Source: a virus
Direction: 5' to 3' (one strand)
IMG/VR virus record: IMGVR_UViG_3300044634_002377
Location: 1-20,864 of that record
Length of the DNA stretch: 20,864 bases
Made by a program: the position numbers and the translations under genes. This document shows, piece by piece, positions 11,442-19,588 of this stretch. Position 1 is the stretch's first letter. Each line of letters begins with the position of its first letter. The notes beneath the pieces are model-generated. The model saw only the letters and a program-made list of their open reading frames with translations, was not told the origin of the DNA and made no database searches.

Positions 11442-11470
11442 ATTATATAATATGAACTAAATGTTGTCAA
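11442..11470 (-). promoter_or_regulatory. Consensus minus-strand promoter inside the end of a hydroxylase gene
   Basis: TTGACA (11470-11465), 17-base spacer, TATAAT (11447-11442), then 8 bases to ATG 11433. The -35 lies in the last codons of the 11457-12257 gene. Confidence 0.8.
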
Positions 11471-12257
11471 TAGTATTATTGTTATTAAAACTTATTAGCT
11501 TTTCTTCCATATTTTGGTAAGGCTCTCCAAGAGCTGAAGTTATTCCTGTTCCAGTATGCATAAACAAAAATATATAAGTTTTGTTTCCAGAAATCACTTC
11601 ACTAACTTCATGAGAAACCAAGCATGGAAGAAAAACTATGCTCCCAGCTGAAGGCTTTATTGAATATCCTAGCTGATCAAACACTAGTTCTCCGCCTTCG
11701 TAGTCATCATTTAAATATATGAGAGACGTCCAGTCCATCGAATTTTTTGGGTTTAAAATGTTTCTGTCTATGTGTGGCCCCATGAAACCACCAATTCTAT
11801 ACTTTCTAATACAGTAGTTTCTGGTTATGTGATGCGGTAGATCATTGTTTGTCTTTTCTGACCAAATTTTTAAAGCGTTAATATAATCATCTTCTATCAT
11901 TTTGATAGCTGGCAATGCCAATTGATGAGCTTTGCTTTCTTGAGCATAATTAGAAATATCTTTGCGGGGCCAATATTGATTGTCTTCATTATAAGAAAGG
12001 TCCCAGTCTAACATCTTAGCAACTCCTGCTAAGGCTCCTTCGTTGTCTGGAAATATCTGTTCCCATTTTGTCAAATCATTTTCGTCTAAGCTAACTGGAT
12101 AGCCGTTAATCCATGTGCTCCATGAAGGGAAAACTTTTAAAATTTCAGGGTTTTGATCATTTGATTCCACAAAATCTAAAAACTCTTTAGATTTAGGAAA
12201 TGCATTCTCAATGTATATTACGCCACCAGGCATATCGTGAATTATTGGAGTAGTCAT
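11457..12257 (-). CDS. 2OG-Fe(II) oxygenase, prolyl-4-hydroxylase-like, 266 aa
   Basis: The double-stranded beta-helix core is clear. GFMGPHIDRN gives the H162-x-D164 iron ligands. SLIYLNDDYEGGELVF is the signature strand after it. KPSAGSIVFLPCLVSHEVSE gives the distal H216, and K226 in GNKTYIF would hold 2-oxoglutarate. The family hydroxylates protein side chains or small molecules with Fe(II), O2 and 2-oxoglutarate. No signal peptide, so it acts in the cytosol. The -10 is 6 bases before ATG, suggesting a leaderless mRNA. Substrate unknown; phage structural proteins or the neighbouring small proteins are candidates. Confidence 0.85.
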   Translation of the reverse strand: MTTPIIHDMPGGVIYIENAFPKSKEFLDFVESNDQNPEILKVFPSWSTWINGYPVSLDENDLTKWEQIFPDNEGALAGVAKMLDWDLSYNEDNQYWPRKDISNYAQESKAHQLALPAIKMIEDDYINALKIWSEKTNNDLPHHITRNYCIRKYRIGGFMGPHIDRNILNPKNSMDWTSLIYLNDDYEGGELVFDQLGYSIKPSAGSIVFLPCLVSHEVSEVISGNKTYIFLFMHTGTGITSALGEPYQNMEEKLISFNNNNTIDNI

Positions 12258-12263
12258 GAATTA

Positions 12264-12269
12264 ATTATA
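12264..12269 (-). promoter_or_regulatory. -10 element TATAAT, 6 bases before ATG 12257
   Basis: TATAAT (12269-12264) contains the TAA stop of the upstream gene. A weak -35 (AAGACG at 12293-12288) lies 18 bases upstream. The spacing to ATG implies a leaderless transcript. Confidence 0.5.
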
Positions 12270-12453
12270 GCATTTCTTTGTTTATTGCGTCTTTAATCAC
12301 TGGATCAAGTCTGTCCCAATGTCCTTTTTCGCTTCCCTGGTAAACCTGACCAGTTTCTCTATCCACAAGAAGCCACTTTTCTGGACACTTAGTTTTAACA
12401 GTTAAATTGACAGATTTTAAAATTGTTTTAAACTTAAATTGTTTACGCAACAC
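12265..12453 (-). CDS. Small basic protein of unknown function, 62 aa
   Basis: GTG at 12453 directly abuts the GroES stop, with AAAAGGA just upstream; TTG one codon later is an alternative. The C-terminal half KWLLVDRETGQVYQGSEKGH, followed by WDRLDPVI, looks like a compact beta-hairpin plus helix, a pattern seen in short phage proteins. No catalytic motif. Probably translated with GroES. Confidence 0.62.
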   Translation of the reverse strand: MLRKQFKFKTILKSVNLTVKTKCPEKWLLVDRETGQVYQGSEKGHWDRLDPVIKDAINKEML

Positions 12454-12750
12454 TTATCCTTTTATTGCAAGCACACTTTTTGTATTTAAAAGTAAGTACT
12501 TTTCTCCATCTGTATCTTCAATATCTGTTCCGCTATTTTGGTTGTAATAAACTATATCATTAACATTGAGGCCCGTTATAGGAATGAGCTCGCCTTTATA
12601 GTTATATTCTCCGTTTCCCATTTCTACAATCTTACCAGTTCTAAGGTTAGATTCACTTAATGATGCCATAAGAACTATGCCAGACGTTGTGGTTCTGTCC
12701 TCAACTTTATCTTCTTTTACTAACAACAAGTTGCCAAATGGTTTAATCAT
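12454..12750 (-). CDS. GroES/Cpn10-like co-chaperonin, 98 aa
   Basis: Full GroES length. The matching blocks are PFGNLLLVKED at the N-terminus, the mobile loop SGIVL at residues 23-27 that docks on GroEL, TGKIVEMGNG (38-47), NVNDIVYYN (61-69) and KSVLAI at the end. Phage GroES homologues such as T4 gp31 replace or complement host GroES to fold large capsid proteins. No GroEL is in the window, so it would work with host GroEL. AGGAG lies 9 bases before ATG. Confidence 0.85.
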   Translation of the reverse strand: MIKPFGNLLLVKEDKVEDRTTTSGIVLMASLSESNLRTGKIVEMGNGEYNYKGELIPITGLNVNDIVYYNQNSGTDIEDTDGEKYLLLNTKSVLAIKG

Positions 12751-12756
12751 TTGTTA

Positions 12757-12918
12757 TTACTCCTCAAAAGATTCTTGTGTTTCCCAAAAGCTATCCTTTT
12801 TGAACTGCTCTTGTATTCTTTTTGCATCTAAAATTACAGACATTTCTCTATAAAGTTTTATTCCCATGTAAACACACACTGCAAATATAGCTGCGGCAAA
12901 TATAATAAAGTTATTCAT
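12757..12918 (-). CDS. Single-span membrane microprotein, 53 aa
   Basis: Start ATG 12918 (MNNFIIFAAAIFAVCVYMGI) is 6 bases after a consensus TATAAT, so it is leaderless. The frame extends to 12954, but that upstream part is the promoter. One hydrophobic segment at residues about 4-21 is followed by KLYREMSVILDAKRIQEQFK and an acidic tail, giving N-out/C-in topology with a cytosolic helix. It could be a small holin-like or regulatory membrane peptide. Precedes GroES by 6 bases. Confidence 0.68.
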   Translation of the reverse strand: MNNFIIFAAAIFAVCVYMGIKLYREMSVILDAKRIQEQFKKDSFWETQESFEE

Positions 12919-12924
12919 ATCTAT

Positions 12925-12954
12925 ATTATACAGCACTATAAGTAAAGCTGTCAA
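12925..12954 (-). promoter_or_regulatory. Consensus leaderless promoter before the membrane microprotein and GroES
   Basis: TTGACA (12954-12949), 18-base spacer, TATAAT (12930-12925), 6 bases to ATG 12918. The TGA inside TTGACA is the stop codon of the upstream oxygenase gene. Confidence 0.8.
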
Positions 12955-13631
12955 TCCTTATATATATTTTTTAATACTTCTCTAGAATCAAAACCTTTAA
13001 ATTCATATTCCTTTTCTTTAACAAGCCATAGAATTACAGCATACTTAGTTCCGTCTGATATCATCCTGCCACCGTGCCACTGATCGGCTGGGAAAACAAA
13101 TGCGTCCAAGGCTCTTGGCTTGCACACAAGACCGCCTGCGCCATCTTTATATAAATAAAATGTATCACCGTACCGCGCTGCATGTGGAGATTCTTCAAAA
13201 TCAGCTTCGTCAAAGCTCTCCAAGAAAACAACTTCTCCGTCTGAATAATTATCGTTAAGGTATATAACACAGCTCCAAACTAAAGATGAGAAATCGTTGT
13301 GGACGTCCTGATGTATTCTAAGCTGTATATCTTTTGATAGTTTTGTTATAGAAACTCCATAAAAATATAAATCTTGATCTATTTTATATTCTGATTTAAC
13401 AGTGTCTATAAATTTTTTAGAATACTTATTTATAATTGGCTCTAGATCTTTAAACAAATACGGTGGCTTCTGGTCTGGGAATATTGCTCTAGATGCCAAT
13501 CCTTTATTTACTGCTATGCCAACTCTACTTTTAAACTTTAAATCATCATCCGAATTTTTATTAATCCAGTCTATTAAAAACAAAGAGTCTTCCTCAGATA
13601 TAAAGTTGTTAATTAATTTTATATCTTTCAT
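12951..13631 (-). CDS. 2OG-Fe(II) oxygenase, 226 aa
   Basis: Iron ligands are H107-x-D109 (RIHQDVH) and H186 (ADQWHGGRM), with K196 (DGTKYAVILW) as the likely 2-oxoglutarate anchor. SCVIYLNDNYSDGEVVFLES is the typical strand after the HxD. The N-terminus KLINNFISEEDSLFLIDW is the standard helical lead-in of prolyl-4-hydroxylase-like enzymes. Between them KPRALDAFVFPA is the conserved turn before the distal His. Cytosolic, complete length. It overlaps the next gene upstream by four bases (ATGA), so the oxygenases are translated as a set. Confidence 0.85.
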   Translation of the reverse strand: MKDIKLINNFISEEDSLFLIDWINKNSDDDLKFKSRVGIAVNKGLASRAIFPDQKPPYLFKDLEPIINKYSKKFIDTVKSEYKIDQDLYFYGVSITKLSKDIQLRIHQDVHNDFSSLVWSCVIYLNDNYSDGEVVFLESFDEADFEESPHAARYGDTFYLYKDGAGGLVCKPRALDAFVFPADQWHGGRMISDGTKYAVILWLVKEKEYEFKGFDSREVLKNIYKD

Positions 13632-14230
13632 TGATTAACTGAATCTGGGAATATGTCTATTAATAAATGAACTCTGTCTATGCTGCTATCATTTAAAACA
13701 GAATGTGGCTTTAAGTTATTTATCTCCCAACATTCCCCGCACTTCATGTTAATTTTTTCTCCATTAACAGTATAATAAACACTATCATTTGTTATAATCG
13801 GTATATGGAATCTCTTTACAGTAGATAGGTAATCTCCTTTATCGGTATGCTCTGGAACATCCTTATTAGATTCAAGCTTAATTAGAAGGACTCTTCCAGA
13901 AGTGCCGCCGTAGATTGACTCTAGATCTTTTACTATAGGTGACACTAAGTCAAAAATGTTTTGATCCTTAATGACTGTATCTATTTTTGTTCCAAAGTCC
14001 CACTGTAGGCTGTGGTCTTGTACTATAAATGTTTGTGTGTGTGCGTGTGGATTTGCTCTGCCTGCGTAAACCACATTTTGCCTATTCTGATCAATTAGCC
14101 ATTCAGAGCTAAATTTTTGTAAGGCATCTTCAATATGAACTACATCATAAGTTTTATTAAATCTAAAATTAAAATCTTCTAATTCTTTTTTTGGAGTTAG
14201 ATCTCCTCTAAGAAATGCCATTTGTCTCAT
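13628..14230 (-). CDS. Aspartyl/asparaginyl beta-hydroxylase-like protein, about 200 aa
   Basis: The core reads RVLLIKLESNKDVPEHTDKG (H128-x-D130), then KRFHIPIITNDSVYYTVNGE, MKCGECWEINNLKPHSVLND (H176) and DRVHLLID (R186). This HxD...H...R pattern with HIPIITN matches the Asp/Asn beta-hydroxylase family, a cupin-type Fe(II)/2OG dioxygenase acting on proteins. Residue numbers assume ATG 14230; 14221 is equally possible and 14263 would extend far into the upstream gene. It overlaps the sulfotransferase gene by 23 bases. Confidence 0.8.
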   Translation of the reverse strand: MRQMAFLRGDLTPKKELEDFNFRFNKTYDVVHIEDALQKFSSEWLIDQNRQNVVYAGRANPHAHTQTFIVQDHSLQWDFGTKIDTVIKDQNIFDLVSPIVKDLESIYGGTSGRVLLIKLESNKDVPEHTDKGDYLSTVKRFHIPIITNDSVYYTVNGEKINMKCGECWEINNLKPHSVLNDSSIDRVHLLIDIFPDSVNQ

Positions 14231-15077
14231 TATCCCTAACATAGTTATAAATAAAGTAATCAATGTTGTTATTCTTTATAATCAATTCAGCGTCTTCTTC
14301 AGATATAAGAGACATTAGGTACTCAGTAGTAATGTTTTTCTCATCTCCGTATGAAAAAGATCCGTAGTTTATAATATTGTTTTGGTCAAACTCTACCTCT
14401 ATTTGATAGTTATTATTAAACCAATCGCTGATATTTTTTTCAAACATAGCAATATTGTCTAAAGAGTTTACAATTTTAAACTTTTTTATCGCCTCCATTG
14501 CATTTTCTTGAGAAGTTTTTTCGTTTCCAACAAACCAAGTAAACGCCTCTCCCTTTTTAAAAAATGGATCCATCATTTCTTCATGATTTTTTGTGTAAAA
14601 GCTTCTAGGATCAAATGAACGCTCATCAGCTGAATTGCAAATAAACCTGGATTGATAGTTATTGTGTAGCTTAAAATTTGGATCTTCAAAAAGATAGTAT
14701 CTTAATTTTTCCAGCGTGGACTTTCTTTCAATATACTCATCTCTTAAAAAAAGAGCACGATTATATATAAAATTAAAATAGCTTAGTCTAGCTTCAACTG
14801 GGTGTCTTACTACAACAGCAACATCTAAAGAGTCTATTAGATCAATTGGATAGGTACCAGCATGCATAGATATGTAAGCCTTGTTAACAAAATTTTTATT
14901 GTTTGGATAGTGTGTACTTATATAGTAAGGTATATTATTTTTATCTAAAGATTTCTTTATATTTGCAGATACATATTTACCAGCAGTTTTTGGTATGTGC
15001 AAAAAATATAGCTGCTTTAGACTTCCTTCTTGATTAAGTTCTTGTTCCAGCCGTTCTCGATTATTTTCTCGTTCCAC
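14208..15077 (-). CDS. Sulfotransferase-family protein, 289 aa
   Basis: Residues 24-36 (YFLHIPKTAGKYV) form the 5' phosphosulfate-binding loop of the Sulfotransfer_2-type family. VVVRHPVEARLSYFNFIYN at 88-106 is the 3' phosphate motif (R91 and S99). Known enzymes move sulfate from PAPS to sugars or tyrosine. No membrane anchor, so cytosolic. GTG 15077 is chosen because AAGGAG sits 9 bases upstream; this places the first 20 codons within the upstream gene (61-base overlap). Substrate unknown, but sugar is plausible given the glycosyltransferase. Confidence 0.82.
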   Translation of the reverse strand: MERENNRERLEQELNQEGSLKQLYFLHIPKTAGKYVSANIKKSLDKNNIPYYISTHYPNNKNFVNKAYISMHAGTYPIDLIDSLDVAVVVRHPVEARLSYFNFIYNRALFLRDEYIERKSTLEKLRYYLFEDPNFKLHNNYQSRFICNSADERSFDPRSFYTKNHEEMMDPFFKKGEAFTWFVGNEKTSQENAMEAIKKFKIVNSLDNIAMFEKNISDWFNNNYQIEVEFDQNNIINYGSFSYGDEKNITTEYLMSLISEEDAELIIKNNNIDYFIYNYVRDNETNGIS

Positions 15078-15883
15078 TTATTAAGGCTCCTTCCTTGATT
15101 ATAAGAGCCTTCCTTGTGTCTTTCACGAAGAATTTCTGTCCACTCTTCTTCAGAGTGTTGAGCTTTTTCAGAATGCCAGGCTTCTGATCCTGGGTACTCG
15201 TATCTCCAGTAAGCTCTAATTAGCGCTTTAGATCCGCCCTTAGCAATCATTGGGCTATGGTAAAAAGGGTGACCAGAAGGGAACATTATTAAGTCACCAG
15301 CATTTGGCTTGTAGTATACGTGACTAAGTAGATCTTCCTTATCATCACTTAGCTCTATGATGTTTACTCCACCATCTTCATAATCATCATTCAAATAGAA
15401 TAAGCATGTTGTTCCAAACTTTAGGCCAGGATCTTCTCTTCTTTCTTCTTGGAAATCAGTGTGGTAGTTCATGCCCTGGAAATCGTTAACTCCCATTCCG
15501 TCTTTATAGTAAGCTATATCAACCGAATCCCAGCACCAGTTATCGTAATCCACTTTAACTGAGCCAAAGTACTGAACTGAAGATTCATGAAACACTTTAA
15601 ACAAATCTTTAACGTACTCATTATTTGTAATTCCAATTTCTTTATCAGAAAAATTTTCATCCATAAACTTTTGCCAATCATCTTTGCTGGGAAATGATTC
15701 AAAGTATCCTCTAGATGTTGGTATTATTATATGAAAACCAAACGTATACCAAGGAATTGATTTATCTTCATGGTTACTTAGGTAATATTCTAGCATCTCT
15801 TTAGAGTTACTTAGGGCATTTTTAAATACCCAAACTTTTTCATGAAGTTTTTCTACCTCAATCTCTTTACCATTTATAATCAA
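15017..15883 (-). CDS. 2OG-Fe(II) oxygenase, 288 aa
   Basis: The core motifs are NYHTDFQ (H141-x-D143), TTCLFYLNDDYEDGGVNIIE, KPNAGDLIMFPSGHPFYHSP with the distal H209, and R223 in KALIRAYWRYEY for 2-oxoglutarate. The N-terminal 100 residues form a family-variable helical domain. The start is TTG 15883 with GTAGGAAC upstream; no ATG is close by in frame. It is the largest of the five oxygenase-like proteins and sits immediately before the sulfotransferase. Substrate unknown. Confidence 0.83.
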   Translation of the reverse strand: MIINGKEIEVEKLHEKVWVFKNALSNSKEMLEYYLSNHEDKSIPWYTFGFHIIIPTSRGYFESFPSKDDWQKFMDENFSDKEIGITNNEYVKDLFKVFHESSVQYFGSVKVDYDNWCWDSVDIAYYKDGMGVNDFQGMNYHTDFQEERREDPGLKFGTTCLFYLNDDYEDGGVNIIELSDDKEDLLSHVYYKPNAGDLIMFPSGHPFYHSPMIAKGGSKALIRAYWRYEYPGSEAWHSEKAQHSEEEWTEILRERHKEGSYNQGRSLNKWNEKIIENGWNKNLIKKEV

Positions 15884-15919: not shown

Positions 15920-16057
15920 CTATTTCTTTGGATGTTTTGGAGAGTAATCTCCTACGATAGCTTTTATTCTACCGTCTTTTCTTAATCTCACAATTTTACC
16001 ATCACGAATAATCGTGTCGTTAAAAGGTACTTGCCTGCCAAATTTTTTTGGAGGCAT
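15920..16057 (-). CDS. Basic microprotein, 45 aa
   Basis: Reads MPPKKFGRQVPFNDTIIRDG then KIVRLRKDGRIKAIVGDYSP and KHPKK. Strongly basic, with a predicted beta-hairpin (TIIRDGKIVRLRKDG). The start overlaps the upstream stop by one base (TAATG). The basic charge suggests nucleic-acid or acidic-protein binding. Family unknown. Confidence 0.65.
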   Translation of the reverse strand: MPPKKFGRQVPFNDTIIRDGKIVRLRKDGRIKAIVGDYSPKHPKK

Positions 16058-16239
16058 TATACTTTCTTTCTTCCAGTTTTTCTAGGTGCTTGAGGAACAG
16101 CTGGTGTTTCTCTTCTAATACCGTGCTTGTTGACATCGATTTTCATTGGAGGTCTTTTAGGCTGTACGCCAGATTTAAATTTACCCTGAGAAGGATTCTT
16201 TTTTGTTGCTTCTCCAGAGCTTACAACGTTTTCTGACAC
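16057..16239 (-). CDS. Basic disordered protein, 60 aa (GTG start)
   Basis: Starts at GTG 16239 within a TAGTG overlap. Composition is Lys/Arg/Pro-rich and low in hydrophobics (KFKSGVQPKRPPMKIDVNKH; RKTGRKKV end), so it is probably disordered and nucleic-acid binding. No known family. Part of the coupled chain from 16592 to 15920. Confidence 0.62.
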   Translation of the reverse strand: MSENVVSSGEATKKNPSQGKFKSGVQPKRPPMKIDVNKHGIRRETPAVPQAPRKTGRKKV

Positions 16240-16346
16240 TACGCTCCCTTAATTTGTGAGATAGTTACAACATTATTGTTAGCTGGTGATGGAGCTGATT
16301 CATACTGAATTTGCTCGTCTTTACCGCATGCACAATCTTTACACAT
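16239..16346 (-). CDS. MCxxCxC microprotein 3, 35 aa
   Basis: Reads MCKDCACGKDEQIQYESAPS then PANNNVVTISQIKGA. Cys at 2, 5 and 7 match the CXXCGC-type N-terminal metal-binding motif known from HypB, with A in place of G. The rest is acidic or polar and disordered. One-base overlaps at both ends (TAATG, TAGTG) support expression. One of three paralogue-like peptides downstream of the radical SAM gene. Confidence 0.72.
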   Translation of the reverse strand: MCKDCACGKDEQIQYESAPSPANNNVVTISQIKGA

Positions 16347-16438
16347 TATTGATCCCTTTGATCTGATACATCCTGGATATTAACTTCTTTAATTCCAGTT
16401 TCGCTTCCTACGCTTTCGCAACCGCATTCAAAGCACAT
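16346..16438 (-). CDS. MCxxCGC microprotein 2, 30 aa
   Basis: Reads MCFECGCESVGSETGIKEVN then IQDVSDQRDQ. C2, C5 and C7 form the exact HypB-type CXXCGC motif. A possible N-terminal amine plus three thiolates could bind Ni(II), Zn(II) or Fe. It begins one base after the preceding stop and ends in a TAATG overlap with microprotein 3. Confidence 0.7.
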   Translation of the reverse strand: MCFECGCESVGSETGIKEVNIQDVSDQRDQ

Positions 16439-16439
16439 A

Positions 16440-16592
16440 TTACTTTGGACCCTGAGCCTGCGCTTGGTTTGAAACGTCTGTTGATGGGAATGCTGCCTTT
16501 GGGTCAGCTGCGTACTGCTCGTTGTTACCCCATACTGTTGAATCGTTTACTTTTGGTGATGTAAATCCGTTTAAATCTTTTCCGTCTGACAT
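16440..16592 (-). CDS. Disordered microprotein, 50 aa
   Basis: Reads MSDGKDLNGFTSPKVNDSTV then WGNNEQYAADPKAAF and a Gln-rich tail. No Cys. TAGGAGC lies about 9 bases before ATG 16592. Low hydrophobicity suggests disorder. It sits between microproteins 1 and 2 in the same operon. Function unknown. Confidence 0.65.
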   Translation of the reverse strand: MSDGKDLNGFTSPKVNDSTVWGNNEQYAADPKAAFPSTDVSNQAQAQGPK

Positions 16593-16639
16593 GTTATTGC
16601 TCCTATAGGTTATTTATTTAAGCGGGACTAGTATTCCAC

Positions 16640-16744
16640 TTATGAATCTATTATATCATTTAGTTGATTAGGATCAACCTCTGCCTCTGTGGGCCTCTCA
16701 TTGCCAAGACCCACGTGGTCTGCACATCCGCATATCCAACACAT
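16640..16744 (-). CDS. MCxxCGC microprotein 1, 34 aa
   Basis: Reads MCWICGCADHVGLGNERPTE then AEVDPNQLNDIIDS. C2, C5, C7 and a nearby H10 give a HypB-like CXXCGC site with an added His. It starts 5 bases after the stop of the radical SAM gene. The acidic C-terminus is shared in character, not in sequence, with the other two peptides. Confidence 0.7.
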   Translation of the reverse strand: MCWICGCADHVGLGNERPTEAEVDPNQLNDIIDS

Positions 16745-16749
16745 CTGCG

Positions 16750-17748
16750 CTAGCCCCAGATGGCCGCTGAGCACTTGGTACACATATTAGAGTATGAGTC
16801 TTCTATCATGCTTGTTCTCTCTTTGCTAAACCATATATCTTTAATTGTAGATTTATTAGAATTTCCGTACACTGTCTTAAAATCAAAATCAGCACAGCAG
16901 ATAAATAAGTCACCATTTGGGTTAATATGTATCCACTCATTAGTTCTGCTTCTTACGCCTAATCCACCATTGCATCCTATTACCTTCTTGCCTTCTCCCG
17001 CCAAATATTTATTAATAGCTGAAGTCTGATCAATTATTCCTGAATCAGCAAGGTGGCCTGCTCTGTCGTATAAATGGTGGGCTGGGAAAACTTCAATTGA
17101 AGGAAATATAGATTTTAATAGCTTAACCTCTTGAGCTAAATCTCCAGACTCTACATCTAAATTTAAATCTGGGGCCCCAGGAAGTATGTCTAACCACCCA
17201 CCATTTTCAACTAATGAATTATTATTTAGACCATTAACCATTAAAAAAAATCTATTTTCTAAAACTAATTCATTTAGTTCTTCTGCAGCATATAAAACAT
17301 TATCTACCATTTTATCAAACATTTTTTCATTTAAATTTACATACTTAGACCATCTGGTTTTATCTCCAGATGGTATATTTAAAAGAATTCCACCAATCAC
17401 ATCGATATTTTTTTTAATTATATCAACTTTTTTCTTGGTAAGTGGAGTACCATTTGTAAGTATGTTTATTGTAAAGTTATATTTTCTATACAAATCAAAC
17501 ATCTCTTCAAAGTTTTTATACAATAGCACTTCGTTGTAATTAGCTGTATAAATGTTTTTTAGATTAGGGTCTACAAAATCACTTTTGCCATTATGAAGTT
17601 GAGAGAGTATATTTTCTAACTCCCCCAACTCCATATCTCTAATAGCAGATTTTGGGTTTCCTTCATAAGAAACTGGGCAAAACCAACATCCAGCATTACA
17701 TAGACCGTTTACATCTATTTGTACTGCGCTGATCTTGTATTGTGACAA
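16750..17748 (-). CDS. Radical SAM protein with SPASM-like C-terminus, 332 aa
   Basis: C17-x3-C21-x2-C24 (CNAGCWFC) is the [4Fe-4S]/SAM motif that cleaves S-adenosylmethionine to a radical. The barrel follows, with INILTNGTPL near residue 95. The C-terminal third carries Cys at 259, 284, 285, 323 and 326, with NPNGDLFICCADFDF and MCTKC, typical of a SPASM or twitch domain that holds auxiliary Fe-S clusters. SPASM enzymes often modify peptides (RiPPs) or proteins. The start is TTG 17748, one base after the upstream stop. The substrate is not shown; adjacent Cys-rich microproteins are candidates. Confidence 0.85.
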   Translation of the reverse strand: MSQYKISAVQIDVNGLCNAGCWFCPVSYEGNPKSAIRDMELGELENILSQLHNGKSDFVDPNLKNIYTANYNEVLLYKNFEEMFDLYRKYNFTINILTNGTPLTKKKVDIIKKNIDVIGGILLNIPSGDKTRWSKYVNLNEKMFDKMVDNVLYAAEELNELVLENRFFLMVNGLNNNSLVENGGWLDILPGAPDLNLDVESGDLAQEVKLLKSIFPSIEVFPAHHLYDRAGHLADSGIIDQTSAINKYLAGEGKKVIGCNGGLGVRSRTNEWIHINPNGDLFICCADFDFKTVYGNSNKSTIKDIWFSKERTSMIEDSYSNMCTKCSAAIWG

Positions 17749-17749
17749 C

Positions 17750-18220
17750 TTAGTCTTTTAGTGACTTCCATGGGTTAGGAGGAAGCTTTAGGCTTGACTC
17801 CAAGAACCAGTTCCATTCTTGATGGGCTGAAAGTCGTTCAGATAGATATGATGATAGTCCGTACTCTTTGTTTTCATTTGCAACAGAGATAAGATTTTTA
17901 ATCTCTTCGATCATCTTCTTATTAATTGGAACTAAGTGAATTGCCATTTCCACGCCACAGTATGTATCTGGCTTAACATTTCCTAGAGTTTGGTTGGATG
18001 CATACTCTTCTAGGGTGTAAGGCGCTTCTCCGCCTAATCGGCGAAGCCATGTTGAGGTGTTGTGTACGCCATCTTCAGAGTCTAAATAGATATCCTCATA
18101 GACAATTCGTGATTGACGCATCAATACAGATTCTGTATTCCAGAAGAACCCTCTTACAAGGTTTGTATAAACAACCGAGTTAGCTTGGAAGGTCTTCAAT
18201 AGATTGATTAGCTTTTCCAT
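17750..18220 (-). CDS. Dps-like ferritin-fold protein lacking ferroxidase residues, 156 aa
   Basis: The start MEKLINLLKTFQANSVVYTN, VRGFFWNTES, a central helix and LRRLGGEAPYTLEEYAS follow the Dps layout and length. Dps ferroxidase ligands would lie at the FFWN, MRQSR and DGVHNTSTW positions, but the usual His, His, Asp and Glu appear as F, Q, H and T by my alignment. The protein may keep the four-helix shell or DNA-binding role without iron oxidation. Ends one base before the radical SAM start. The assignment rests on motif-level similarity. Confidence 0.65.
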   Translation of the reverse strand: MEKLINLLKTFQANSVVYTNLVRGFFWNTESVLMRQSRIVYEDIYLDSEDGVHNTSTWLRRLGGEAPYTLEEYASNQTLGNVKPDTYCGVEMAIHLVPINKKMIEEIKNLISVANENKEYGLSSYLSERLSAHQEWNWFLESSLKLPPNPWKSLKD

Positions 18221-18367: not shown

Positions 18368-18583
18368 TTACTTAGCCTTAATCTTTTCCCAGATTTTTTC
18401 ATGAATATAATAAAATGACATCTCTACAAGCAAATATGAAATTGCCCCAATGCCAATATACTCCCATTCAGCTTCTCCTGTGAGAAGCTTAGTTACAATA
18501 TAAAGTAATCCACCTACAAAGAATACATGTACAAATGGCCATGTGATTGATTTGTATAGACTTTTCTTCTTTGGGTCGATCAT
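18368..18583 (-). CDS. DUF2061 family membrane protein, 71 aa
   Basis: The sequence KSLYKSITWPFVHVFFVGGL, LYIVTKLLTG, then ISYLLVEMSFYYIHEKIWEK matches the DUF2061 pattern of two transmembrane helices joined by a short loop and ending in YY-x-HE-x-W. The family is of unknown function and occurs in bacteria and some phages. The start overlaps the upstream stop by four bases (ATGA). Confidence 0.78.
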   Translation of the reverse strand: MIDPKKKSLYKSITWPFVHVFFVGGLLYIVTKLLTGEAEWEYIGIGAISYLLVEMSFYYIHEKIWEKIKAK

Positions 18584-18795
18584 GCTACTGAGTTACCCTT
18601 TGATCCCGCCGATTTCTTGGCTGGTGCCTTCTTGGCTGGTGCCTTCTTTGCTGGTGCCTTCTTGGCTGGTGCCTTCTTGGCTGGTGCCTTCTTGGCTGGT
18701 GCCTTCTTAGCCGAAGTCTTAATTTCTTCTAGCATGGCTTCAACCTGAGATTCAACTGAATTGAATCCTAACCAATTTTTTAAATTCTTTAACAT
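18580..18795 (-). CDS. Histone-H1-like basic-tail protein, 71 aa
   Basis: An N-terminal amphipathic segment (MLKNLKNWLGFNSVESQVEA) is followed by six tandem A-P-A-K-K units and a short SAGSKG end. Lys/Ala/Pro repeats of this kind occur in histone H1-like and HU-extended nucleoid proteins and bind DNA without sequence preference. Here the tail has no globular domain, so the N-terminal helix may bind membrane or a partner. Start ATG 18795 overlaps the upstream stop by 7 bases. Confidence 0.75.
   Translation of the reverse strand: MLKNLKNWLGFNSVESQVEAMLEEIKTSAKKAPAKKAPAKKAPAKKAPAKKAPAKKAPAKKSAGSKGNSVA
18616..18705 (-). repeat. Six tandem 15-bp repeats encoding the APAKK tail
   Basis: Units of form cttggctggtgcctt on the plus strand, at 18616, 18631, 18646, 18661, 18676 and 18691. 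They differ only at one base in the third unit. Near-identity at DNA level points to recent expansion; a diverged seventh unit follows at 18706. Confidence 0.9.
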
Positions 18796-18958: not shown

Positions 18959-19588
18959 TTAAAGATCATCCGCAATAGGATTATTTCTATCAGCATTTAC
19001 TAGAAAACCTGTCCTTGGGCCAGGGGCCCAAACACGATGTGTTGTTTTTTTAGGGAAAAACAATAGGTCTCCCTCTTTTAACTCATAAGTTGTTGTTGAG
19101 TTTTTTCCTTTTATTTCCCAAAAAGAAGTACCAATTGATTGAAGGTAGCAAGCTGGCCAAGGGTCGCTATGCTCTCCTACAGATTTTTCTCCCAATGAAA
19201 CTTTTATGCCTTCTGTGTGCCACAAAGCTCCGCAGGTACATCCTCTGGCATCCCATTCTTTATAATAATTACAATTTGAAAAGTCTGCATTAAAACCTGA
19301 TTCTTTATTTATCTTAACTAAAAAATCTTTCATTTCAGGAAAATGTTCCCAAACTAATCCAGTTTGAGGAGCAAGCCACATAGGTTTTTGGGCTAGAATA
19401 TTACCGTATGTGTCTACGCCTGGGCCCTGTTCCTTATTTTTTGATTCCAGGTCGGGGTTATTTATTTTTGTTTGATCGTATACAAAATCTAAAACATTTT
19501 GCCAAGTAAATTCTGTTTTAAAATAATCTTTAATCAAAACAGCTTCTTCATTTATGGCTGCTTTTTTAAATTCTAAAAGTAAATTCAT
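18959..19588 (-). CDS. Cupin-type putative Fe(II)/2OG oxygenase, 209 aa
   Basis: VGEHSDPWPACYLQSIGTSF supplies H140-x-D142, KEGDLLFFPKKTTHRVWAPG the distal H184, and R192 (GPRTGFLVN) a basic residue for 2-oxoglutarate. The fold is JmjC/cupin-like and differs from the prolyl-hydroxylase-type genes further left. An internal CTCGALWHTEG segment may bind metal or be structural. Cytosolic. Enzyme activity is inferred; a non-oxygenase cupin is an alternative. Upstream lies a hairpin that isolates it from the secreted-protein gene. Confidence 0.7.
   Translation of the reverse strand: MNLLLEFKKAAINEEAVLIKDYFKTEFTWQNVLDFVYDQTKINNPDLESKNKEQGPGVDTYGNILAQKPMWLAPQTGLVWEHFPEMKDFLVKINKESGFNADFSNCNYYKEWDARGCTCGALWHTEGIKVSLGEKSVGEHSDPWPACYLQSIGTSFWEIKGKNSTTTYELKEGDLLFFPKKTTHRVWAPGPRTGFLVNADRNNPIADDL

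Follow-up and report, generated by a model that had tools for sequence, protein, structure and literature searches.

A radical SAM enzyme gene and the gene of a 34-aa cysteine-headed microprotein (P1) form one unit in this DNA of an uncultured phage, and two further microproteins with similar heads (P2 and P3) belong to a second, separate array; these are two units, not one. P1 is a dedicated partner gene of the enzyme, whereas P2 and P3 are distributed independently of it. The heads carry the cysteine positions of the HypB nickel site, and the enzyme is most similar, in sequence and in predicted fold, to BtrN.

Organization of the locus

In the window (the whole stretch of DNA that was analysed, 20,864 nucleotides), the genes of the enzyme, P1, A50, P2, P3, B60 and a 45-aa protein are all encoded on the minus strand, in that order. 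The features, with the evidence for them in brackets, are as follows:

17750-18220, minus strand: Ferritin/Dps-like protein upstream of the enzyme (Pfam Ferritin, 2e-6)
16750-17748, minus strand: radical SAM enzyme, 332 aa (Pfam, alignment, AlphaFold2, fold comparison)
16640-16744, minus strand: P1, 34 aa, MCWICGCADHVGLGNERPTEAEVDPNQLNDIIDS, head MCWICGC (ATG 5 nt after the enzyme stop)
16650-16658, minus strand: extended -10 promoter element TGATATAAT within the P1 tail (consensus matches)
16593-16649, minus strand: 5' leader of the array, with a 7-bp hairpin, CTAG loop and RBS CCTATAGGAG (covariation, covariance model)
16440-16592, minus strand: A50, 50 aa, cysteine-free, first gene of the array (motif near P2)
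16346-16438, minus strand: P2, 30 aa, head MCFECGC, array member (pattern search, selection)
16239-16346, minus strand: P3, 35 aa, head MCKDCAC, array member, start overlapping the P2 stop (sequence, selection)
16057-16239, minus strand: B60, basic, 60 aa (NKHGIRRE, GRKKV end), GTG start overlapping the P3 stop
15920-16057, minus strand: basic 45-aa protein after B60 in this subclade, with a start/stop overlap with B60

A sequence-only reading of this DNA had given the peptide lengths correctly as 34, 30 and 35 residues and had placed all three as a set behind the enzyme. The tie to the enzyme was confirmed for P1, but P2 and P3 fell into the separate array; the 50-aa gene, the promoter motif and the hairpin leader between P1 and P2 had been overlooked.

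The ferritin-like gene is a variable companion. It was considered as an obligate third member of the module and rejected, being present in only 23 of the 41 close enzyme loci, some of which are fragmentary. Further upstream, a 71-aa protein with a KKAPAKKAPA repeat tail is encoded at 18580-18795 (minus strand). Several Fe(II)/2OG oxygenase, Asp/Asn hydroxylase and cupin/JmjC genes occupy positions 11457-15883 and 18959-19588 (minus strand), and by eye a sulfotransferase-like gene lies amid those oxygenase genes, in one 8-kb stretch. Genes of the Fe(II)/2OG oxygenase type are frequent across these phages, clustering near P2 in 44 of the 72 loci listed, so nearness to them proves little.

P1 is a dedicated partner gene of the enzyme

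Searching by the enzyme alone yielded 78 loci, comprising 41 close ones (L001-L040 and L043; at least 62% identity) and 37 distant ones (36-45%). P1 was present in 40 of the 41 close loci, directly after the enzyme in 34 and behind a PLP gene in six (L023-L028); the one such PLP protein scanned was of the Cys/Met-metabolism type. Searching by P1 alone gave 46 contigs, all of which carried the enzyme (46/46); 40 were known from the enzyme search, and the enzymes of the other six showed 61-65% identity. The sole close locus without P1, L014, keeps the enzyme and the promoter-bearing tail DNA (2343-2460) with the head deleted, and shares a 95% identity group with L012, which carries P1. Moreover, L019 and L022-L028 retain P1 together with the enzyme, with neither A50 nor B60 detected there. 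Most records are fragments, and the 29 enzyme representatives that were clustered fell into 24 groups at an identity of 95% and into 12 at 80%; these counts are therefore not independent events. P1 was found in none of the 37 distant-enzyme loci, in which the enzyme neighbours are mostly glycosyltransferase-like or fibre-like genes (by eye, in the 11 of 37 loci read).

The P1 head is under purifying selection, and the tail is not conserved. Specifically, in the enzyme-picked loci, pN/pS was 0.10 for codons 2-16 (pS 0.83, pN 0.08), 0.17 for the same stretch minus the pattern-fixed codons (pS 0.77, pN 0.13) and 0.75 for codons 17-23. Positions 1-3, 5-8, 10 and 12 were invariant in the 21 distinct peptides from these loci, and 12 of the first 16 positions, including the W and the three Cys, varied in at most one of the 21. 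Positions 1-3 and 5-7 were fixed by the search pattern; yet 40 of the 41 close loci meet this pattern, and the remaining one has no P1. The conserved DII end of P1 was considered as a further trace of protein selection and rejected, because it corresponds to promoter-like TGNTATAAT, with the frame kept open in the 28 coding sequences that carry it. No division into leader and core was visible in P1. In an AlphaFold2 model of the in-frame enzyme-P1 read-through, P1 had a pLDDT below 50 and no docking was predicted.

P2 and P3 belong to an array that occurs without the enzyme

The 72 distinct P2 peptides, which are the distinct forms among the loci listed (some shorter than 2.5 kb), have a different company. 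Among the matches listed, the genes within 2.5 kb of P2 included B60 in 66 of 72 cases, A50 in 47, members of the P4 family in 23 and the enzyme in 11. One more P2 (L111) comes from a short locus whose record was known to carry the enzyme, which leaves 60 of the 72 with no enzyme found nearby among these matches. None of 16 long records (55-125 kb) that have P2- or P4-type genes contained the enzyme. These records were hand-picked, 15 having the MC..CGC motif in the fetched locus and L185 having P4 only, and as a control the enzyme query matched 7 of 7 enzyme-bearing records. Because P2 is mostly found with no enzyme nearby and the long records have none, P2 and P3 are not its dedicated substrates. 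The three peptides as one substrate set, a candidate we had considered, was rejected on this independence. Since records that lack the enzyme still have heads of the P2 and P4 types, the class as such has no need of it. The question raised earlier, whether the peptides are widespread without the enzyme, thus has two answers: yes for P2 and P3, no for P1 (46/46 and 40/41).

The P4 family (MCxxCGxC[ST]xEHxxxIDDAxDxxLDSPI, about 26-45 aa) is very widespread (L125-L201; for example, L018 6646-6729), with at least about 100 distinct forms among the matches listed, a few unrelated chance matches included. The P3 head reads CxxCAC in the window and CxxCGC in many relatives, and several dissimilar tails were seen by eye behind P2-type heads. 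In two records, ORFs around the array (L352 1825-2127, 8548-9596 and 11714-12004; L351 7250-9292) look by eye like genes of thioredoxin, peroxiredoxin, AhpD, glutathione peroxidase and KatG and may outline a phage peroxide-defence region.

With the codons fixed by search patterns and end motifs left out, the free head codons had a pN/pS of 0.35 in P2 and 0.68 in P4, and the middle part had 0.59 in P2, 0.24 in P3 and 0.66 in P4. Further along, the ratio was 0.37 for codons 29-45 of P2, 0.06 for the tail of P3 and 0.49 for codons 19-25 of P4. Judged from such ratios, P1, P2 and P3 are translated, selected proteins, and P4 is probably another. The head is not especially conserved in P4 and only moderately so in P2, which leaves P1 as the one member whose head is clearly conserved.

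Pfam had no family for P1 or P2 and gave P3 a sub-threshold CIAPIN1 match (E 0.032). No PHROG model matched P1-P4 better than E 0.03, profile searches being low-powered on 30-aa proteins, and INPHARED gave no hit to P1 or P4 and a single weak one (E 2) to P2, in a search whose short queries may miss diverged copies. The peptides are apparently an undescribed protein class, with no family model found that covers them.

Promoter and hairpin leader of the array

The promoter element inside the P1 tail has TTGATC 16 nt upstream of TATAAT. Of 32 distinct P1 coding sequences, 28 contained the extended -10 element TGNTATAAT, and the remaining four encode 23-25-aa forms and overlap the following PLP-type gene. 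The motif occurred 10 times in the window versus 1.95 expected. In five related phages (L251, L253, L257, L259 and L270), the module is absent from the site and the promoter element is kept; there, a 40-aa gene runs straight into the DNA that encodes the P1 end in the window.

The leader that follows was compared across 24 leaders chosen from 61 of 101, found by a search that fixed the -10 and the RBS but not the stem. All pair cells (100%) were standard pairs, and 39 cells were changed on both sides versus 12.9 in shuffles. The leader model (71.2 bits, E 3e-17) found one strong copy (E <1e-15) in each of 9 of 9 long records, with an additional weaker match in G004 (E 1.6e-4). Rfam had no entry at the leader, the search finding only a tRNA. 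Since a promoter element and a hairpin leader precede A50, the array seems to be transcribed as a separate unit, directly downstream of the enzyme-P1 module. From its match to consensus, the array promoter is presumably active, and the leader could regulate or stabilise the array mRNA.

The radical SAM enzyme resembles BtrN

The enzyme matches Pfam Radical_SAM (1.4e-9) and SPASM (3e-9). Its radical SAM core CxxxCxxC (CNAGCWFC; C17, C21 and C24) was invariant in 22 aligned sequences, as were C259, C284, C285, C323 and C326 in the C-terminal part. These cysteines are expected to suffice for one auxiliary cluster, in a twitch-like arrangement. The seven-cysteine SPASM motif, given as CX9-15GX4C-CX2CX5CX3C-C in the available part of PMC6231123, was not found in the alignment, which has C259-X19-G-X4-C284 and C323-X2-C326, the protein ending six residues later. 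The enzyme chain has no N-terminal RRE domain, the first cluster cysteine being residue 17.

The AlphaFold2 model (pLDDT 88) predicts a radical SAM barrel with a twitch domain of the BtrN type. Among the PDB matches listed for this model, BtrN (4m7t) ranked first (Z 19.3, 225 aligned residues, rmsd 2.8, 22% identity), followed by anSMEcpe (Z 16.6), ChlB (16.6), SuiB (16.5) and SkfB (16.0), with DesII also among the next-ranked folds (range Z 16.3-16.6). BtrN was also the sole PDB sequence match (1.3e-8); it is described as a twitch enzyme that oxidises an aminocyclitol (PMC9012708, in the part available). By alignment and model, the enzyme is thus not a full SPASM protein, with BtrN as its best match in both sequence and fold. 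The earlier assignment to the SPASM type that modifies Cys-rich precursors therefore holds as far as the Pfam SPASM match goes, but not for the seven-cysteine motif or the closest relative.

In GTDB contigs, none of 88 pattern stretches was confirmed by tblastn as an enzyme relative, and INPHARED contained no relative at 1e-5. PHROGs gave weak radical SAM matches at best, and no NCBIfam model reached its cut-off.

The cysteine head and its other carriers

MCxxCxC was matched 57 times and its reversed pattern once in 24 records (about 1.34 Mb), three of the 57 matches being located some 20 kb away from the cluster. In the 41 enzyme-picked loci, ATG ORFs of 20-70 aa contained MC..CGC 82 times, versus 0 for five permuted motifs; neither it nor the permuted motifs occurred in the 37 distant-enzyme loci. 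A chance origin of the head motif is excluded, and together with the pN/pS values this bears out the earlier claim that the peptides are real.

The HypB-type head MCxxCGC is exact in P1 and P2, and the likeness to the HypB nickel site proposed by the sequence-only reading agrees with the cysteine positions in the available part of PMC7055735. According to that source, HypB of E. coli binds Ni(II) via Cys2, Cys5, Cys7 and the N-terminal amine with a sub-picomolar Kd. Pfam found no GTPase (cobW/HypB) domain in P1-P3.

The P2 head pattern was found in seven stretches of GTDB contigs: one HypB-type GTPase (cobW 4e-22), one truncated His-rich protein, one chance match and four 80-aa proteins with no Pfam match at 1e-3. 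Two of these four, when rescanned, gave HMA at 0.0015 and 0.013, under the Pfam cut-off. The 80-aa proteins come from Selenomonadales (L335, L336, L337 and L339) and join an MCxECGC head to an HMA-like stretch; on this architecture, they are possible undescribed metallochaperones. In addition, a head of the form MC[NT][ST]CGC is carried by a 238-aa protein in two phages (L093 2488-3204; L085 from 1848), and Pfam identified the L093 protein, the one scanned, as an Fe(II)/2OG oxygenase.

Possible functions of the microproteins

We tentatively favour, with rather less than even confidence, the explanation that the heads bind metal and that P1 is the dedicated metal-binding accessory of the enzyme, with P2 and P3 in a separate array. 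The weight given here to each explanation follows from the pairing of P1 and from the company that the head keeps. The MCxxCGC and MCxxCGxC microproteins would be a phage class with an N-terminal HypB-type metal-binding head, in which the Cys2, Cys5 and Cys7 thiolates and probably also the N-terminal amine would be the ligands, and variable tails would address the common head to different partners. P1 would be the member dedicated to the BtrN-like twitch radical SAM enzyme: translated directly after it, P1 would dock on it by the head (W3, G6, A8, H10 and G12) and hold or deliver a metal ion for it. The P2/P3 array would be expressed from its own promoter and hairpin leader. Metal binding, docking and delivery are what we infer from the likeness of the head and the pairing of the genes. 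Counting against this explanation, the near-invariant W3, D9 and N15 of P1 exceed the needs of a metal site and would suit a substrate equally well.

That P1 is the substrate is the strongest competing explanation, if somewhat less probable: the enzyme would oxidise or cross-link a residue of the CWxCGCADH head, giving a RiPP-like modified peptide or a modified metal site, and P2 and P3 would have no part in this step. The pairing and adjacency of the two genes are consistent with this, as are the head, more invariant than metal binding needs (W and the three Cys included), and an enzyme fold close to those of the peptide-acting anSMEcpe, ChlB, SuiB and SkfB. However, BtrN outranks these folds and is the only PDB sequence match, the seven-cysteine SPASM motif is missing, there is no space for an N-terminal RRE, and P1 has no visible leader/core division; the distant relatives of the enzyme, moreover, lack P1 (0/37 loci) and mostly sit beside glycosyltransferase-like or fibre-like genes (11 read). 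The metal-carrier option fits the class as a whole better than the substrate option. A broader combination of the two strikes us as unlikely: actinobacterial phages would carry undescribed free-standing metal-head microproteins as a metallochaperone set, with one leader per genome, and in one lineage a BtrN-derived enzyme would covalently modify P1 (for example, by oxidation of a head cysteine or a W3-C5 link) to give a modified metal site.

Improbable, in our estimate, is that the heads are thiol redox or peroxide-handling modules in an oxidative-stress region instead of metal carriers. By eye, array-adjacent ORFs in two records resemble thioredoxin, peroxiredoxin, AhpD, glutathione peroxidase and KatG, and the KatG-like protein of L030 matches Pfam peroxidase; yet three thiols at fixed spacing, two of which flank a G, together with an H conserved in P1 and P4, have the look of a metal site, and the bacterial carriers of the head that were found resemble metal proteins. 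We consider it very improbable that P1 is a mere coupling or attenuation ORF, with its cysteine codons as sensor for the downstream genes and an irrelevant product. The array promoter does overlap the P1 tail, and cysteine-responsive leader ORFs are known in mycobacteria, but the P1 head codons change mostly synonymously, P1 is kept with the enzyme where neither A50 nor B60 was detected (L019 and L022-L028), and the array carries a promoter motif of its own.

Host and significance

The TIGR03299 gene of the window has relatives in 609 named phage records, the best near 50%, and at least 530 of these are named after Mycobacterium, Streptomyces, Microbacterium, Arthrobacter, Gordonia or Rhodococcus. 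Additionally, among 394 genomes from the class to which an actinomycete assembly belongs, one matched the first 200 residues of a surface-like protein (36%). An actinobacterial host is therefore likely, judging from these similarities. Four named Streptomyces phages, among the closest by the TIGR03299 gene, have no in-frame MCxxCGC ORF; the two pattern matches in NootNoot are both out of frame at the last cysteine. A search with Terminase_6N found no terminase in five long records.

Phage proteins of fewer than 50 residues are seldom explained, and here a large set of them shares a known nickel-site head; the peptides are short enough for synthesis, making phage metal handling testable. The locus also carries a promoter motif within the tail-coding part of a gene. 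Should the enzyme modify P1, the two would form a radical SAM peptide pair encoded by a phage, from a lineage without a match in INPHARED.

Comparison with known systems

As the sequence-only reading had supposed, no described system with this layout was found in the literature, judged by titles and the beginnings of abstracts. The heads are like that of HypB in having Cys2, Cys5 and Cys7 right after Met1, with a G between the last two Cys, a likeness at the level of sequence. Unlike HypB, the phage proteins stand alone at 23-68 aa with differing tails and no GTPase domain found, and up to three or four such genes occur per phage locus.

With SkfB, SuiB and ChlB, the enzyme shares a related fold (Z 16.0-16.6) and a gene that adjoins the gene of a short conserved Cys/Trp peptide, but here there is no N-terminal RRE region, no seven-cysteine SPASM motif and no leader-core precursor to be seen. 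anSME (anaerobic sulfatase-maturating enzyme), whose target is a Cys or Ser within a peptide and whose substrate carries a sulfatase motif, is the second-ranked fold (Z 16.6) among the matches listed. In contrast to the enzyme here, it carries two auxiliary clusters, according to the available part of PMC6231123. The closest likeness is to BtrN, a radical SAM dehydrogenase acting on 2-DOIA, which has the same predicted fold class, the enzyme having cysteines for one auxiliary cluster; at 332 residues, the phage enzyme differs in exceeding the solved BtrN chain (246) by about 80 and in having a dedicated microprotein partner.
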